DNA of 64,000 bases, taken from assembly GCF_900111745.1 (NCBI RefSeq), contig NZ_FOIJ01000003.1:372001-436000 (forward strand), read 5' to 3'. The notes beneath the pieces are model-generated. The model did not search any database. It saw only the letters and a program-made list of their open reading frames with translations, and had not been told where the DNA came from. Positions 8,785-55,276 of this stretch are shown here, piece by piece (the stretch's first letter is position 1; each line of letters opens with the position of its first letter). Source of the stretch: Stigmatella erecta. Its GTDB lineage: Bacteria; Myxococcota; Myxococcia; Myxococcales; Myxococcaceae. The position numbers were made by a program, and so were the translations under genes.

Positions 8785-11700
8785 ATGATGGGTTGGATGA
8801 AGCCGGGGGCGCTGGTGGCCCTGATCCTCGGACCGCTCCTGACGGTCCAGGGGTGCACGAAGAAGGAAGAGCCAGGAGCCGCCCCGCCCCGCGCGCCCCG
8901 CCTGGCCCCACACTCGCGCGCGCTGGCCTCCGGGGCTCAAGTCCTTCGAGCGCCGGAGGGGGCCGAATACGTCGAGGGCCAGGTGCTGGTGCGATTCAAG
9001 AAGGGCACCGGGCACTCCCTGGCCGCGGCCGCCCACGCCCGGCTGGGGGCGCAAGTGCTGCGCACGTACCGCTCCCTGCCCGGGTGGCAGCTCGTCACGG
9101 TGCCCAAGGCGTCCCTGAAGGACACCCTGGCGGCGTACCGGAAGGATCCCAGCGTCGAGCACGTGGAGCCCAACCTCGTCTACCGCCTCAGCGCGCTGCC
9201 CAATGATCCCCGCTTCGGAGACCTCTGGGGCCTGCACAACACCGGGCAGGCGGGGGGCACGGCCGACGTCGACATCAACGCCCCGGAGGCCTGGGAGCTG
9301 ACCCGGGGCAGCCGCGCCGCGGGCGTCATCGCGGTCATCGACACCGGCCTCGACTACACCCACGCGGACCTCCAGGCCAACCTGTGGACCAACCCGGGCG
9401 AGGTGCCGGGCAACCACGTGGACGACGATGGCAACGGCTTCATCGACGACGTCCACGGCATCAACGCCATCACCCTCAGCGGCGATCCGATGGATGACAA
9501 CGAGCACGGCACGCACTGCGCGGGCACCATCGCCGGGGCGGGCCACAACACCACCGGCGTGGTGGGGGTGAACTGGTCCGCCCAGCTCATGGCCTGCAAG
9601 TTCCTGGATGCCGGAGGCAGCGGCACCCTGGCGGATGCCGTCACCTGCCTCGACTACGTCCACCAGATGAAGACGCGGACCGCCCAGCCGGTCAACATCG
9701 TCGCCACCAACAACTCGTGGGGAGGCGGGGCCTACTCGCTGGCGTTGCAAGAGGCCATCACCCAGCAACGCGACGACGGCACCCTCTTCGTGACCGCAGC
9801 GGGCAACAACGCCACCGACAACGACTCCCTGGCCGCGTACCCGGGCAATTACTTTCTCTCCAACATCCTCTCCGTGGCCGCGCACGACCGGGACGATGCG
9901 CTCGCGGACTTCTCCAGCTATGGCCAGCGCACCGTGCACCTCGCGGCGCCGGGGGTCGACATCGTCAGCACCGTGCCGGGCAGCGGGTATGAGGCGTTCG
10001 ATGGCACCTCGATGGCCACCCCGCATGTGGCCGGCGTGATTGGACTGCTCAAGGCCCAGGATCCGGACCGCGACTGGCGGCAGCTCAAGAACCTGGTGCT
10101 CGCCGGCGCGGTGAACTCCGCCGCCGCCCAGGGCAAGACGCTGACGGGCAAGCGGCTGCGCGCCTCGGACACGGGCGGCAAGGGCTCGCTCACGTGCAAC
10201 AACCAGGTCTTCTCCAGCCGGGTGCGGCCCCTCCAGTCCACCGCCTCCGTGACCACGCAGGAGCCGCTGCAGATCGTCGCCTACCACATCAACTGCGACG
10301 CACCGGCGGGCGTGCTGGCCGTCACCGTGACGCCCGGCAACGAGACGTTCCTGCTCCAGGACAACGGGCAGCACGGGGACGAGGCGGCCGGAGACGGCAT
10401 GTACACCGGCTATTTCGAGCCGGGCGCCCCGGGCACCTATACCCTGACGCTGCCGGACGGGGAGACGCTGAACGTCCAGACGGCCCTGAGCTACGTGCGC
10501 ACGGAGGTGCCCCTGGAGTGGCGCACGTTCGCGGGGACCTCCCTGGAGCAGGGAGACGACACTGTCACGCCCCTCTCCAGCCCCTTCCCCATCCCGTTCG
10601 CCCAGGGGCCCGGGCAGAGCCTGCTGAACATCAGCATGAACGGCGTGCTGTCCTTCAGCAGCACGGAGATTGGCTTCACCAACGTCGCGCTGCCGGACTC
10701 GGGCCACACCACGCTGGTGGCGCCCTTCTGGGATGATCTCTACCCAGGCCCCACCCCCGGGGACAACGTGTACTGGGGCGTGCGGGGCGTGGCCCCCCGC
10801 CGGGAGCTCGTGGTGGAGTGGCGCAACGTCCACCACCGGGACACCCGCGCGGATGATCCCGCCGACACCCTGACCTTCCAGGTGGTCTTCTTCGAGGACA
10901 AGGCGGACATCCTCTTCAATTATCAGGACGTGCTCGTCAACCACCCGGACCTGGACCAGGGCGCGAGCGCCACCGTGGGCATCCAGACCGCCGGGCTGGC
11001 CGCGGTCCAGCACAGCAGCAACGCACCCACCCTGCGGAGCGGCACGGCGCTGCTGTGGCGCCTCCAGACGCCCAGCACCGCCCCGGTGGTCCAGCCGCTC
11101 TCGGTCACCCCGGACACGCTCACCGAGGGAGACCCCGTCACCCTCACGATGTCCTTCAGCGATGCGGACGGGGACACGGACGGCCCCTGGACGGTCCAGT
11201 TCGACACGGACTTCCCCGGCTGGTTCACCCCGGACATCGTCCATGAAACCGCCCAGCAGGGCAGCCTCTCCGCCTCGGCGCCGGTGTACGCGAGCGGAAC
11301 GGTCCTGATGGCGGTGCGCGTCACGGATGCCAGCGGAACCCGCTCCCTCGTGGAGAAGTTCCCCGTCACCGTGGCCGACGTGGCCCCCGTGCTCGACAGC
11401 CTCGTTACCGCCGGTGCTGCCCAGGAAAACAGGCCCACCGCCCTCACCGTCTCCTTCTCGGATCCAGGGCTGGATGCGCCCTGGAAGGTGGAGTGGGACC
11501 TCGACCACGATGGCGTCACCTTCTCGCCGGACCGGGTGTCCACCGTCTCCTCGGCCGGAAACGTCACCCTCGAGCACCTCTTCCCCCAGGATGGCACCTT
11601 CACCGTCGCCGCGCGCATCACCGACAAGGACGGGGTGCGGAGCAACGTCCAGGTGCTGGCCGTCACCGTCGAGGACCTGGCCCCCGCGCTGAGCGCCCTT

Positions 11701-14154
11701 CAAGGCAACACGTCACTGACCGAGGGCAGCGCCTTCCAGCTCACCTCCTCCTTCAGCAATCCGGGCGACACCGCCGCGCCGTGGAAGGTCCAATGGGACT
11801 ACGACTACGACGGGACCACCTTCACCGTGGATGCGGAGGAATCCCGGCTCACCGATGGGGCCATCACCCTCTCCGGCATCGCCTCGGACTCGGGCGCACG
11901 CCCGTATGCCCTGCGCGTGGTGGATGCCGATGGCAGCATCTCCGAGGTGCGCACCCTCACGCTGGACATCGCCGAGGCCCACCCGCACGCGGCGGAGCTG
12001 AAGGCCCTGGTCCTCACGGGCGGAGGAATGGAGCCCTCCACGATGACCTTTGATCTGCGCGCACACAGCGGCGCGGAGGAGTCCTCCGCCGATCCCCTCA
12101 AGGCGTTCCTGTGGGACTTCGAGGGCGATGGCACGTTCGATGCCCTGACCTCCACGCCCTACGCCCTGCACACCTTCCGCGACAACGCGGCCGGAGGGCA
12201 GCCCTTCACCACCGTCGTGCGCGTGATGGATGAGGACAGCTACACCGAGCTGTCCATCCCCGTCCCGGTCCAGAACGTGGTCCCCACCTTGGCACCGCCC
12301 GCCCCGGTGGAGGCCGTGGAGGGCAGCCTGCTCGCGCTGCGGCTCACGGCCACGGACCCCGGCTCGGACACGCTGACCTTCAGCGCCAGCGGCGCCCCGG
12401 AGGGCCTGAACGTGACGGCCGATGGCCTGCTGCTGTGGACGCCCCGCTTCGCGCAGGGCAGCGGCGAGGGGAAGCCCCACACCGTCACCGTCACCGTCAC
12501 CGATGACGATGGTGCCTCGGACTCGAAGGCCCTCACCCTCACCGTCCGGTGGAAGGACGCCGATGGCGATGGGATGGCGGACAGCTGGGAGGAGGCGCAC
12601 GGCCTGGATCCCGCGCGCGACGACGCGGCCGAGGACCGGGACGGCGACGGGGTGAACAACCTCGAGGAGTTCCTCTCCGAGCACGGGGGGCTGCTCCTCC
12701 CCGAGGCGGCCGTGGCCCACGCGCCCTTGTCTGGCACCCAGGTGGATGCGCCCGAGCTGGTGCTCACCACGGAGAACGTGACGGAGGCGGGCCACCTCAC
12801 CACGGTGCGCTACCAGTTCCAGCTCTTCGCCGGCTGGGACTTCACCCAGCCGGTCCGCGACGTCACGGTGGACCAGACCCCGGGGGCCACCACCTCGGCC
12901 ACGCTGACGGATGGCACGGAGAGCGAGACGCTGGAGGACCTCACGGACAACGCCTCCTATACCTGGCGCGTGCGCGCCACGGATGAGGCGCTCCACGGCC
13001 CCTGGAGCGTGCTGCAGTCCATCACCTTCAACCCCGTCAACGATGCCCCGGGCGCCCCGCGTCCGGCCCACCCCCTGGACGGGACGCAGGTGTCCACCGG
13101 CACGCCCACGCTCATCACCGACAACGCGCTCGATATCGACGATGAGGTGCTCACCTATACATTCACGCTCGCCACGGACCCGGAGCTGCGCCAGCCGCTG
13201 CTCACTTCCCATACCACCGTGGCGGGCGCTCACGGCAGCACGGCCTGGACCGTGCCTTCGGCCCTCGCGCCCGCCACCACGTATTACTGGCGGGTCACGG
13301 CGGAGGATCCCCACGGGGCCACGGCCCACAGCCCCGTGGCCTCCTTCTCCACCGCCCTCGGCCGTCCGTCCAACCATGAGCCGGGCCTGCCCGGGCTCGC
13401 GGAGCCGTCCGCCGACGGCCACGTGGCCTCGTTCACCCCCACGCTCGTGGCCCATGCCGCGCAGGATGCCGATGGGGACACGCTCTCCTATGTCTTCGAG
13501 CTCGACACCACCGCGCGCTTCAGCACCCCGGACCACCCGGTCTCTCCGCCCGTGGCCCTGGACGCGGACGGCCAGGTGCGCTGGCGGACGCCCGAGCTGA
13601 AGGAGAACACGCGCTACTTCTGGCGCATCCGGGCGCTGGATGGCTTCTCCGCGAGCGAGTGGGCGCTCAACGCGTTCATCGTCAACACGCGCAATGACGC
13701 CCCCTCGGCCCCCGTCGCGCTCAATCCCTCCGACGCCATCATCTCCAGCCGCACGCCCACCCTGCGAATCCAGAACGCCGTGGACCCCGAGGGGGATGAG
13801 CTCACCTACATCTTCGAGGTGCGGCGGGCCGATGGGAGGCTGGTGGCCTCGGGCCAGGGTGTGACCGAGGAGGGCCAGGCCCAGACGCGCTTCACCCTCC
13901 CCGACCAGCTCCACCGGGGCGGGACGTATGTCTGGACCGCCTACGCGACGGACTCCTCCGGAACCGCGGGGCCCCGTTCCGCCAAGGCCCGCTTCAGGGT
14001 CCACCGGGGCTCGGACCGCACGCCGGGCTCCGATGACCGCTACGGGGGATGCAGCACGGGCGGCGGCGCGGTGGGAAGCCTCCTGCCGCTGGTGGCCCTG
14101 GGGCTCGGGCGGCTTCGCCGGTCCCGCCGCGCGCCCCGGAGCCGTCCGGACTGA
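8785..14154 (+). CDS. Giant subtilisin-like (S8) surface protease with lipobox and MYXO-CTERM-like tail
   Basis: 1789 residues from the ATG at 8785 (AGCAGG 8 bases upstream). The N-terminus is a lipoprotein signal ending LLTVQGC (Cys24). Next is an I9-like propeptide (about 62-135) and the S8 catalytic domain with Asp186 (VIDTGLDYTHADL), His241 (NEHGTHCAGTIAG) and Ser409 (GTSMATPHVAGV). Then come a beta-sandwich region (about 480-760), several PKD-like repeats, and a Ca-binding segment (DADGDGMADSWEEAHGLDP, then DRDGDGVNN). Three to four Fn3-like repeats follow, each starting near N(D/E)AP.AP...P. The end, GGCSTGGGAVGSLLPLVALG plus RLRRSRR, is a Cys-Gly motif, a hydrophobic helix and a basic tail, as in MYXO-CTERM sorting signals. 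It should act at the cell surface, degrading proteins or prey. Carrying both N- and C-terminal anchors is odd. Confidence 0.92.
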   Translation: MMGWMKPGALVALILGPLLTVQGCTKKEEPGAAPPRAPRLAPHSRALASGAQVLRAPEGAEYVEGQVLVRFKKGTGHSLAAAAHARLGAQVLRTYRSLPGWQLVTVPKASLKDTLAAYRKDPSVEHVEPNLVYRLSALPNDPRFGDLWGLHNTGQAGGTADVDINAPEAWELTRGSRAAGVIAVIDTGLDYTHADLQANLWTNPGEVPGNHVDDDGNGFIDDVHGINAITLSGDPMDDNEHGTHCAGTIAGAGHNTTGVVGVNWSAQLMACKFLDAGGSGTLADAVTCLDYVHQMKTRTAQPVNIVATNNSWGGGAYSLALQEAITQQRDDGTLFVTAAGNNATDNDSLAAYPGNYFLSNILSVAAHDRDDALADFSSYGQRTVHLAAPGVDIVSTVPGSGYEAFDGTSMATPHVAGVIGLLKAQDPDRDWRQLKNLVLAGAVNSAAAQGKTLTGKRLRASDTGGKGSLTCNNQVFSSRVRPLQSTASVTTQEPLQIVAYHINCDAPAGVLAVTVTPGNETFLLQDNGQHGDEAAGDGMYTGYFEPGAPGTYTLTLPDGETLNVQTALSYVRTEVPLEWRTFAGTSLEQGDDTVTPLSSPFPIPFAQGPGQSLLNISMNGVLSFSSTEIGFTNVALPDSGHTTLVAPFWDDLYPGPTPGDNVYWGVRGVAPRRELVVEWRNVHHRDTRADDPADTLTFQVVFFEDKADILFNYQDVLVNHPDLDQGASATVGIQTAGLAAVQHSSNAPTLRSGTALLWRLQTPSTAPVVQPLSVTPDTLTEGDPVTLTMSFSDADGDTDGPWTVQFDTDFPGWFTPDIVHETAQQGSLSASAPVYASGTVLMAVRVTDASGTRSLVEKFPVTVADVAPVLDSLVTAGAAQENRPTALTVSFSDPGLDAPWKVEWDLDHDGVTFSPDRVSTVSSAGNVTLEHLFPQDGTFTVAARITDKDGVRSNVQVLAVTVEDLAPALSALQGNTSLTEGSAFQLTSSFSNPGDTAAPWKVQWDYDYDGTTFTVDAEESRLTDGAITLSGIASDSGARPYALRVVDADGSISEVRTLTLDIAEAHPHAAELKALVLTGGGMEPSTMTFDLRAHSGAEESSADPLKAFLWDFEGDGTFDALTSTPYALHTFRDNAAGGQPFTTVVRVMDEDSYTELSIPVPVQNVVPTLAPPAPVEAVEGSLLALRLTATDPGSDTLTFSASGAPEGLNVTADGLLLWTPRFAQGSGEGKPHTVTVTVTDDDGASDSKALTLTVRWKDADGDGMADSWEEAHGLDPARDDAAEDRDGDGVNNLEEFLSEHGGLLLPEAAVAHAPLSGTQVDAPELVLTTENVTEAGHLTTVRYQFQLFAGWDFTQPVRDVTVDQTPGATTSATLTDGTESETLEDLTDNASYTWRVRATDEALHGPWSVLQSITFNPVNDAPGAPRPAHPLDGTQVSTGTPTLITDNALDIDDEVLTYTFTLATDPELRQPLLTSHTTVAGAHGSTAWTVPSALAPATTYYWRVTAEDPHGATAHSPVASFSTALGRPSNHEPGLPGLAEPSADGHVASFTPTLVAHAAQDADGDTLSYVFELDTTARFSTPDHPVSPPVALDADGQVRWRTPELKENTRYFWRIRALDGFSASEWALNAFIVNTRNDAPSAPVALNPSDAIISSRTPTLRIQNAVDPEGDELTYIFEVRRADGRLVASGQGVTEEGQAQTRFTLPDQLHRGGTYVWTAYATDSSGTAGPRSAKARFRVHRGSDRTPGSDDRYGGCSTGGGAVGSLLPLVALGLGRLRRSRRAPRSRPD

Positions 14155-53686: not shown

Positions 53687-55276
53687 CTACAGGCCGGAGG
53701 CCGCCTTGACCGCGGCGCTCGCGTTCACGAGCCCGTAGCCGTAGGTGGTGTCGTAGCCCGCGGCGCCCAGGTTCGTCGCCGTGTTGAAGAGGTGGGTCTC
53801 CACCTGGCTGTTGGTGAGCGCGGGCTTCGAGGACCAGATGAGGCCCAGGACACCCGACACGTGCGGGGTGGCCATCGAGGTGCCGTCATACAAGTCCCAC
53901 GCCGAGGCCTGGTTCACCACCGTGCCGCTGGCGCCCGCCTGGGCCTTGAGGCTGGCACCGGTGGTGTCGGACACGCCGATGGTGGGGACCCACGCGCGGC
54001 CGTCGGCGGTGGTGGCCGTGCCCAGGGTGCCACTGAATTCCCCCGCGACGTTGTTGTAGAGGATGGCCGCCACGGCCCCCTGGTTCATCGCGTTCAGCAC
54101 CTTGTCCGAGAAGTTGATCGTCCCGCGCTGGATGAGGGCGATGTTGCCGCTCACCGAGGCGGGGCACTCCCCAACCTGGCCGAGGCCACAGTGGACGATC
54201 GTCTGGGTGATGCCCGCCGTGCGGCCCGCGAACTCGAAGCCCAGGCCCATGAAGGTGGCGGAGGTGGACACCGACGCCTCGCTGCCCGTCCCGCCGGGCA
54301 CCGACGAGAGCACCATCACGCCCGGCGCCACCACGTCGATGTTGGTGCCCCGGTTGGAGAAGGTGGCCAGGGCGTTGTTCACATCCACCGCGCCCACGGC
54401 GATGTTGGTGGCGTAGCCAGCCGGGAAGGAGACCTTCGAGGCTCCGTCATTGCCCGTGGCCGCGACGATGAGGGCGCCCTTGGTGCGCATCTCCTTGTAG
54501 AAGTTCTCCTCGATGCGCGACTTCGTGCCGCCACCCAGGCTCAGGTTGACGATCTTGCAGCCGGCCGTCTCCACCAGCCAGCGCACGCCGTCCATGATGT
54601 CCGAGGTCGTCCCGCCGTTGGGGCCGAGCACGCGCGCGTGGTACAGCTGGGCGCCGTAGGCCACGCCGTAGACGCCCGCGCTGTTGTGAGCCGCCACGAT
54701 GGTGCCCGCCACGTGGGTGCCGTGCGTCTCGTTCACGTCGTTGTTCCACCACGGATCCGAGTCATTGCTGACCGTGTCGATGCCGCCCTTGTAAATGGGG
54801 GCGATGTCCGGGTGGGTGTAGTCCAGGCCGGTATCCGCCACGCCAATCTTGATGCCGGCGCCGGTGATGCCCCGGGCGTGCACCGCGGTGGCCTGGGTGG
54901 TGATGAGGCCGTAGAGGCCGTTGCCCGTGGACGGGGTGAGCTGGCTGGTGGCGAGCCCCAGCGGCATGCGGATGGCGTCCTCTTCGATGGTCTCGATGAG
55001 GTTGGAGCGCATCAGCGCGGCCATCTTCGACGGCTTCATCTCCACGGCGGCCACGTTCAGCTCGGAGAAGTCCTTGCGAAGGTTGGCGCCCATCTGCTTG
55101 AGCAGCGCGTGCTCGGCGGCCCCCGGCCGGTTCTTGAAGGCCACCAGGTAGCGGCCCGAGGACTCCAGCGAGGCGGCATCCACACCGGGCTCGGATTGAG
55201 GGGCTCCCTCATCCAGGGGACCGGTCCCGCAGGCGGACAACAGCATCAACGCGGCAAACACGGACGACTTCTTCAT
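53687..55276 (-). CDS. Subtilisin-like (S8) serine protease lipoprotein with PA-domain insertion
   Basis: 529 residues. Lipobox ALMLLSACGTG; I9-type propeptide (about 40-105: RYLVAFKNRPGAAEHALLKQ, LNVAAVEMKPSKMAALMR). Catalytic Asp148 (VADTGLDYTHPDI), His185 (NETHGTHVAGTIVA), oxyanion Asn276 (AATGNDG), Ser467 (YDGTSMATPHVSG). Between about 336 and 455 an inserted protease-associated (PA) domain (SGNIALIQRGTINFSDKVLN, AVAAILYNNVAGEFSG) probably helps choose substrates. The protein ends soon after the catalytic domain, unlike the giant subtilase at 8.8 kb. Secreted and self-processed at the cell surface. A 9 bp hairpin lies in its leader. Confidence 0.94.
   Translation of the reverse strand: MKKSSVFAALMLLSACGTGPLDEGAPQSEPGVDAASLESSGRYLVAFKNRPGAAEHALLKQMGANLRKDFSELNVAAVEMKPSKMAALMRSNLIETIEEDAIRMPLGLATSQLTPSTGNGLYGLITTQATAVHARGITGAGIKIGVADTGLDYTHPDIAPIYKGGIDTVSNDSDPWWNNDVNETHGTHVAGTIVAAHNSAGVYGVAYGAQLYHARVLGPNGGTTSDIMDGVRWLVETAGCKIVNLSLGGGTKSRIEENFYKEMRTKGALIVAATGNDGASKVSFPAGYATNIAVGAVDVNNALATFSNRGTNIDVVAPGVMVLSSVPGGTGSEASVSTSATFMGLGFEFAGRTAGITQTIVHCGLGQVGECPASVSGNIALIQRGTINFSDKVLNAMNQGAVAAILYNNVAGEFSGTLGTATTADGRAWVPTIGVSDTTGASLKAQAGASGTVVNQASAWDLYDGTSMATPHVSGVLGLIWSSKPALTNSQVETHLFNTATNLGAAGYDTTYGYGLVNASAAVKAASGL

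Follow-up and report, generated by a model that had tools for sequence, protein, structure and literature searches.

Lipobox-like and MYXO-CTERM-type signals at opposite ends of a giant pro-subtilase encoded by Stigmatella erecta

MYXO-CTERM proteins, such as TraA, are described in the available text of PMC11980579 as carrying a tripartite tail with a Cys, as being cleaved by the myxosortase MrtX, and as being transported by the type II system, with Lgt as the leading candidate for lipidating the MYXO-CTERM Cys. In the model given there, the signal peptide is removed by signal peptidase, and the generic tail motif is GCGC. The gene described here, which lies in a 64,000-nucleotide stretch of the Stigmatella erecta genome (the window), encodes a subtilase that resembles this system in its Cys-containing tripartite tail, and the same genome encodes both MrtX and a type II secretin. 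It departs from the published model in that its N-terminal signal is lipobox-like and its tail has a single Cys within GGCS, with no GCGC motif. Judged from sequence, the anatomy of both end signals is real, and predicted double-ended tagging is shared with other surface proteins of relatives.

The gene occupies a single open frame (positions 8785 to 14154, + strand, as for all of its features below; 1789 amino acids [aa] plus stop), the ATG start of which aligns with the starts of relatives. The sequence-only reading of this DNA had described a giant subtilase, which was borne out by a Peptidase S8 catalytic domain within the 1789-aa frame (PF00082, 164.3 bits; residues 181 to 445, positions 9325 to 10119). 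The S8 motifs VIDTG, HGTH, AAGNN, and GTSMA were located at residues 184, 241, 338, and 407, respectively, and the catalytic residues are presumably D186, H241, N341, and S409. Upstream of this domain is a fervidolysin-type N-terminal propeptide (PF22148, 55.5 bits, cut-off 21; residues 51 to 130, positions 8935 to 9174), which together with the catalytic motifs places the protein among the S8 peptidases with a propeptide. Downstream lie a choice-of-anchor X domain (NF041940, 46.9 bits, cut-off 25; residues 524 to 555, positions 10354 to 10449) and a stalk of Pfam-annotated PKD and Ig-like domains (residues 866 to 1731, from the best PKD_4 stretch to Big_13; positions 11380 to 13977).

Relatives were sought in 39 genomes, including that of S. 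erecta itself. Whole-length relatives were found at 89, 75, 74, and 56%, and a shorter relative (L076) was found at 59 to 60% in another genus of the same family. Two further copies, L077 (genome G001) and L176 (genome G002), lack the propeptide and the S8 domain and retain both end signals; G002 also carries a full-length copy. No such relative was among the matches listed for G006, a genome of the window's genus. Across the 39 genomes, the double-tagged pro-subtilase was confined to two genera of the family, one of them that of the window.

Cys24 and Cys1756 are present in all eight aligned sequences (this protein and seven relatives). None of the remaining five of the protein's seven cysteines is shared by all eight, partly because two of the sequences lack the domains bearing them; four of these five occur in each of the six sequences that possess those domains. 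Residues Q22, G23, and Cys24 were invariant (8/8), and the tail likewise retained its Cys, Gly, Leu, and Arg positions in 8/8. In comparison with L075, 9 of 22 aligned positions were identical in the linker that follows Cys24 (residues 25 to 50, positions 8857 to 8934), as were 5 of 16 in the stretch preceding the tail. Identity over the 29-residue tail ranged from 13/29 to 26/29 across the seven relatives; on these alignments, the motif residues of the tail are kept, and conservation of the tail as a whole does not exceed that of the remaining sequence. In L076, 297 aligned stalk columns are missing before the tail, and the tail is still there. The end of L076, with part of the stalk missing, has a collagen-like spacer (DGKDGKDGKDG) directly before the tail.

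The N terminus comprises a signal peptide (residues 1 to 23, positions 8785 to 8853) with K6, a hydrophobic core, and a VQG end, followed by Cys24 (codon TGC, positions 8854 to 8856) and TKKEEP. Under a home-made rule it has the basic n-region, hydrophobic core, and Cys at +1 of a type II signal. The residue at +2 is Thr, not the Lys that is associated in PMC3222651 (available text) with inner-membrane lipoproteins of M. xanthus. With Gln at −2, VQGC falls outside both the strict lipobox pattern [LVI][ASTVI][GAS]C (PMC5472700, available text) and the form given for M. xanthus, L-[AST]-[GA]-C (PMC3222651), and it is called lipobox-like here for that reason. Of the lipobox Cys24 named in the sequence-only reading, the conserved Cys stands, and the motif around it is atypical of a strict lipobox. 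Lipid on Cys24 is a prediction. Wider lipobox patterns admit Gln, and signal peptidase I might also accept VQG at −3 to −1.

If signal peptidase I cut at or near Cys24, the protein would have no N-terminal lipid, and the C-terminal tag would be the sole anchor. The Gln at −2 agrees with such a cut, as do the relatives of the protease core (44 rows): of the 17 that lie outside the close group, are complete at the 5′ end, and match from residue ≤67, none had a lipobox, 15 had a signal without one, and two (the giant frames L216 and L218) had no signal called. The invariance of Q22, G23, and Cys24 in all eight sequences, while the following linker diverges, argues the other way, and a protein with no N-terminal lipid is considered improbable.

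The tail (residues 1754 to 1782, positions 14044 to 14130) has the sequence GGCSTGGGAVGSLLPLVALGLGRLRRSRR. The C terminus was reported earlier as a Cys-Gly motif, a hydrophobic helix, and a basic cluster; Cys1756 (codon TGC, positions 14050 to 14052), a hydrophobic stretch, and RRSRR were confirmed, and the motif was corrected to Gly-Gly-Cys-Ser (GGCSTG). An invariant Cys, a hydrophobic helix, and an Arg-rich end constitute the MYXO-CTERM layout. The TIGR03901 model scored 17.2 bits on the tail in a whole-protein scan and 24.2 bits in a frame search (curated cut-off, 20), and TIGR03382 scored 12.0 bits in the whole-protein scan (cut-off, 15.85). Five of seven relatives were scanned; TIGR03901 gave 24.1 bits for L076, 19.9 for L075, 19.1 for L077, and 15.0 for L072, with no match for the L073 tail at E ≤ 0.1, and TIGR03382 gave 20.0 bits for L076, 16.1 for L075, and 15.9 for L077. 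Because the TIGR03901 scores straddle the cut-off of 20, the tail is labeled MYXO-CTERM-type.

A tail that does not work as a sorting tag, whether a plain membrane helix or a decayed signal, would leave the protease bound to the inner membrane or released. Consistent with this are the whole-protein score of 17.2 against 20, the failure of L073 to be listed at E ≤ 0.1, the lack of a GCGC motif, and the want of special conservation over the whole tail. The probability of a nonworking tail is nevertheless low, as the Cys, Gly, Leu, and Arg positions are kept in every sequence, and L076 exceeds the cut-off and has kept its tail despite the missing stalk columns. The genome also encodes candidate machinery for tail sorting. 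Of five genomic matches to the CPBP family, one, at locus L033, is the myxosortase gene that the sequence-only reading had proposed to look for, assigned as MrtX (NCBIfam NF040593, 443.8 bits, cut-off 180). The type II secretin GspD was present as well (649.2 bits, cut-off 351.35). Cleavage by MrtX and surface anchoring via Cys1756 are proposed.

A structure model of residues 24 to 470, built from 20 sequences (mean pLDDT 77.1, pTM 0.80), has a disordered start at residues 24 to 58 (model residues 1 to 35, pLDDT <50), consistent with a flexible linker after Cys24. The propeptide was modeled confidently (pLDDT 86 to 96 over residues 64 to 133), and stretches of low confidence occur at residues 137 to 154 (model residues 114 to 131) and 165 to 178. 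In a fold search, the model matched solved proforms, including pro-Tk-subtilisin, SUB1, and fervidolysin, over 383 to 453 columns. In a separate alignment, the deposited deseasin chain (3vv3) matched the protein from its own residue 3 at residue 138. The probable junction between propeptide and mature protease (residues 136 to 154, positions 9190 to 9246) was assigned by homology, low pLDDT, and the 3vv3 alignment; a cleavage site near residue 135 is placed by homology only.

In the scheme proposed here, the protein would be exported by Sec with a type II signal peptide, and Lgt and LspA would leave a lipid on Cys24. By analogy with TraA, the tail helix would hold the C terminus in the inner membrane while Cys1756 is modified and MrtX removes the helix and the Arg cluster. 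The type II system might then carry the protein to the surface, a route published for MYXO-CTERM proteins (PMC11980579, available text) and for some lipoproteins as well. Judging from domain order and homologues, the propeptide would aid folding of the S8 domain and be cut near residue 135, so that the lipid-bearing piece is detached and the mature enzyme and its Ig-like stalk are held by the C-terminal Cys. The features seen directly are both end signals and their conservation, the catalytic motifs, where the propeptide lies, and the genes for MrtX and the type II secretin.

A surface pro-subtilase with a transient N-terminal anchor and a lasting C-terminal one is given an even chance of being the correct description. 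The order of lipobox, disordered linker, propeptide, low-confidence junction, and S8 domain favors loss of the N-terminal anchor: since the lipobox precedes the propeptide, self-cleavage near residue 135 should shed the former and leave the C-terminal anchor. The absence of Lys at +2 and the frequent placement of a lipobox before the propeptide in the subtilases of this genome also speak for a transient anchor, and the Gln at −2, the whole-protein tail score below the cut-off, and a cut placed by homology speak against it, as do L077 and L176 and the double-tagged proteins described below in which no S8 domain, or no propeptide family ahead of it, is listed.

The combination of end signals was then surveyed among other proteins with MYXO-CTERM tails, the N termini being classed by a home-made signal rule, revised after the first results, and then by eye. 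In S. erecta, 42 TIGR03901 matches were found, 33 with at least 17 bits, and 10 of these 33 were double-tagged by rule and eye. In five other genomes (G013, G014, G017, G027, and G032), 14 of 75 MYXO-CTERM matches were double-tagged (13 by rule and L116 by eye); these 75 were what remained of 95 matches in six genomes after the 20 of G005 were left out, and they include 11 with no signal called and the rule-positive L173, set aside as ambiguous. The first version of the rule had given 10/33 (with L037 in and L059 out) and 17/75. The frame search scored 150 of 268 first-look candidates, and L177 and L178, discussed below, were not among the matches listed, so tails are undercounted. Eight of the 10 double-tagged S. 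erecta proteins exceeded the TIGR03901 cut-off in the frame search, one of them together with its neighbors; in whole-protein scans of eight of the others besides the gene in question, none reached 20 bits and one passed TIGR03382.

When Cys in the rule was replaced by H, W, Y, N, Q, M, F, or D as a control, 0 to 3 proteins were called in the S. erecta set and 1 to 8 in the others; replacement by proline gave 10 and 15, respectively. In a 400-kb background sample, the control gave 14 calls for Cys and 2 to 13 for nine substitutes (Met, 12; Phe, 13). A lipobox was called in 15 of 41 exported-type genes of that sample, a rough figure because the rule control was poor there, and some of the listed signals look false by eye. 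Lipobox enrichment among the MYXO-CTERM matches was not seen against this rough background (10/33 versus 15/41, P = 0.63). The idea that the double tag is unique to this gene was ruled out by the 10/33 and 14/75 counts and by two more giant subtilases. A single-Cys tail, which had appeared to mark double tagging in the first genome, was rejected as a mark on more data; two Cys were found in 5 of 22 double-tagged proteins with a readable tail and in 26 of 72 others (Fisher's test, P = 0.31). Among 19 clusters with at least two members, two mixed lipobox and other signals (a 20-member cluster and the one with L116), and the ambiguous L173 falls in another. None of the 24 rule-called double-tagged proteins had Lys at +2.

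Eight of the nine other double-tagged S. erecta proteins (all except L059) were scanned for domains. They comprised a trypsin, an MXAN_6640-type metalloprotease, and proteins with ELWxxDGT/HYR, choice-of-anchor D repeats, Kelch/HYR, cadherin-like repeats, or cadherin-like repeats plus a sub-cut-off AgmC match, as well as one with the tail as its only match; an S8 domain was found in none of the eight. L059 and L066 are adhesin-like and double-tagged, with the MYXO-CTERM-type tail internal to a longer frame; L066 has a partial AgmC match, below its cut-off. This internal position recalls MXAN_5598 as described in the available text of PMC11980579. From these predicted signals, the lipobox together with a MYXO-CTERM-type tail is a recurrent combination, a class rather than a single protein. 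In the literature listings and text passages covered, to which Haft 2024 (J Bacteriol, on myxosortases) and supplementary files did not belong, double tagging was not described, and it is not claimed as unpublished.

Double-tagged proteins were long, with a median of 1638 versus 553.5 aa (24 versus 72 proteins, P = 1.9e-6; other genomes by protein, P = 2.2e-6). The link was not significant in the S. erecta genome alone (P = 0.14) and was weak by family (8 versus 33, P = 0.045, with the mixed 20-member cluster entered as double-tagged); in the background sample, lipobox genes had a median of 383 versus 292 aa. The length of these proteins, the existence of double-tagged proteins without a subtilase domain, and the retention of both ends by L077 and L176 without propeptide and protease are all compatible with a permanent double tether, in which lipids at Cys24 and Cys1756 would hold the chain as an arch on the outer membrane, its propeptide uncut or still bound. 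The S8 domain has its catalytic motifs, and maturation of S8 proteases that carry such propeptides normally involves cleaving the propeptide away, which counts against a permanent tether, as does the weakness of the length link; for this protein it is unlikely. Of the two outcomes offered in the sequence-only reading, a double tether or release of the N-terminal anchor, release is the likelier for this protease by its lipobox-propeptide-S8 order.

The built-in switch of attachment suggested there was not supported as an explanation of why proteins are double-tagged: L077 and L176 are double-tagged without a propeptide and S8 domain, and the eight other members scanned without an S8 domain, so double tagging needs no switch; in L177 and L178, Pfam lists no propeptide family ahead of the S8 domain. 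A broader reading, held tentatively and with less than even probability, is a Myxococcaceae class of surface proteins with two lipid anchors per chain that form long adhesin-like arches, in which the lipid of some subtilases would be borne by the propeptide and self-cleavage would convert the arch to a C-terminal tether.

The S. erecta genome has 24 S8 matches, corresponding to 22 genes. A lipobox was found in 17 of the 22 (15 of 21 by rule, plus two by eye, L179 and the window gene; for L263, the outcome varies with the distance over which start codons are searched), compared with the rough exported-type background of 15/41 (P = 0.003). In six of seven scanned lipobox-only subtilases, the lipobox and the S8 domain are separated by an Inhibitor_I9 propeptide. 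A second subtilase in the window (positions 53687 to 55276, − strand; 529 aa) has the lipobox LSAC and, by eye, no C-terminal tag. MYXO-CTERM-type tails were found in three S8 genes, the gene at positions 8785 to 14154, L177 (5395 to 13251, 2619 aa), and L178 (221 to 5968, − strand, 1916 aa), which all have a lipobox and are the three longest frames of the S8 genes. L177 and L178 belong to a separate family, which also includes L110, L136, and L144 (from G017 and G013), with no BLAST match to the 1789-aa protein at E ≤ 1e-5. In both, the S8 domain starts at about residue 323. The L178 tail passed TIGR03382 (21.3 versus 15.85 bits), and that of L177 was not listed.

A chain with both a lipobox-type and a MYXO-CTERM-type Cys offers an internal control, in that both ends can be labeled and mapped together. 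Such a chain would also show how the cell deals with a protein lipidated at its two termini, and whether the propeptides of lipobox subtilases serve to hold zymogens in place.

Among described systems, the GlyGly-CTERM proteins sorted by rhombosortase, such as the serine protease VesB, are similar in combining C-terminal sorting with an N-terminal signal and differ in both tag and enzyme (PMC13393428 and PMC3237569, available texts); the words lipobox and lipoprotein are absent from the available text of PMC3237569. Pullulanase and InvL, as presented in the available text of PMC13393428, differ in that no C-terminal tag is mentioned for them. By sequence, the closest solved catalytic domain is that of deseasin MCP-01 (3vv3, E = 2.1e-103), which was also at the top of the fold search. 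NalP and SphB1 (PMC9289746, available text) are autotransporters without a C-terminal sorting tag such as the one found here, and they resemble the protein in being subtilases for which temporary surface retention through an N-terminal lipid is proposed.
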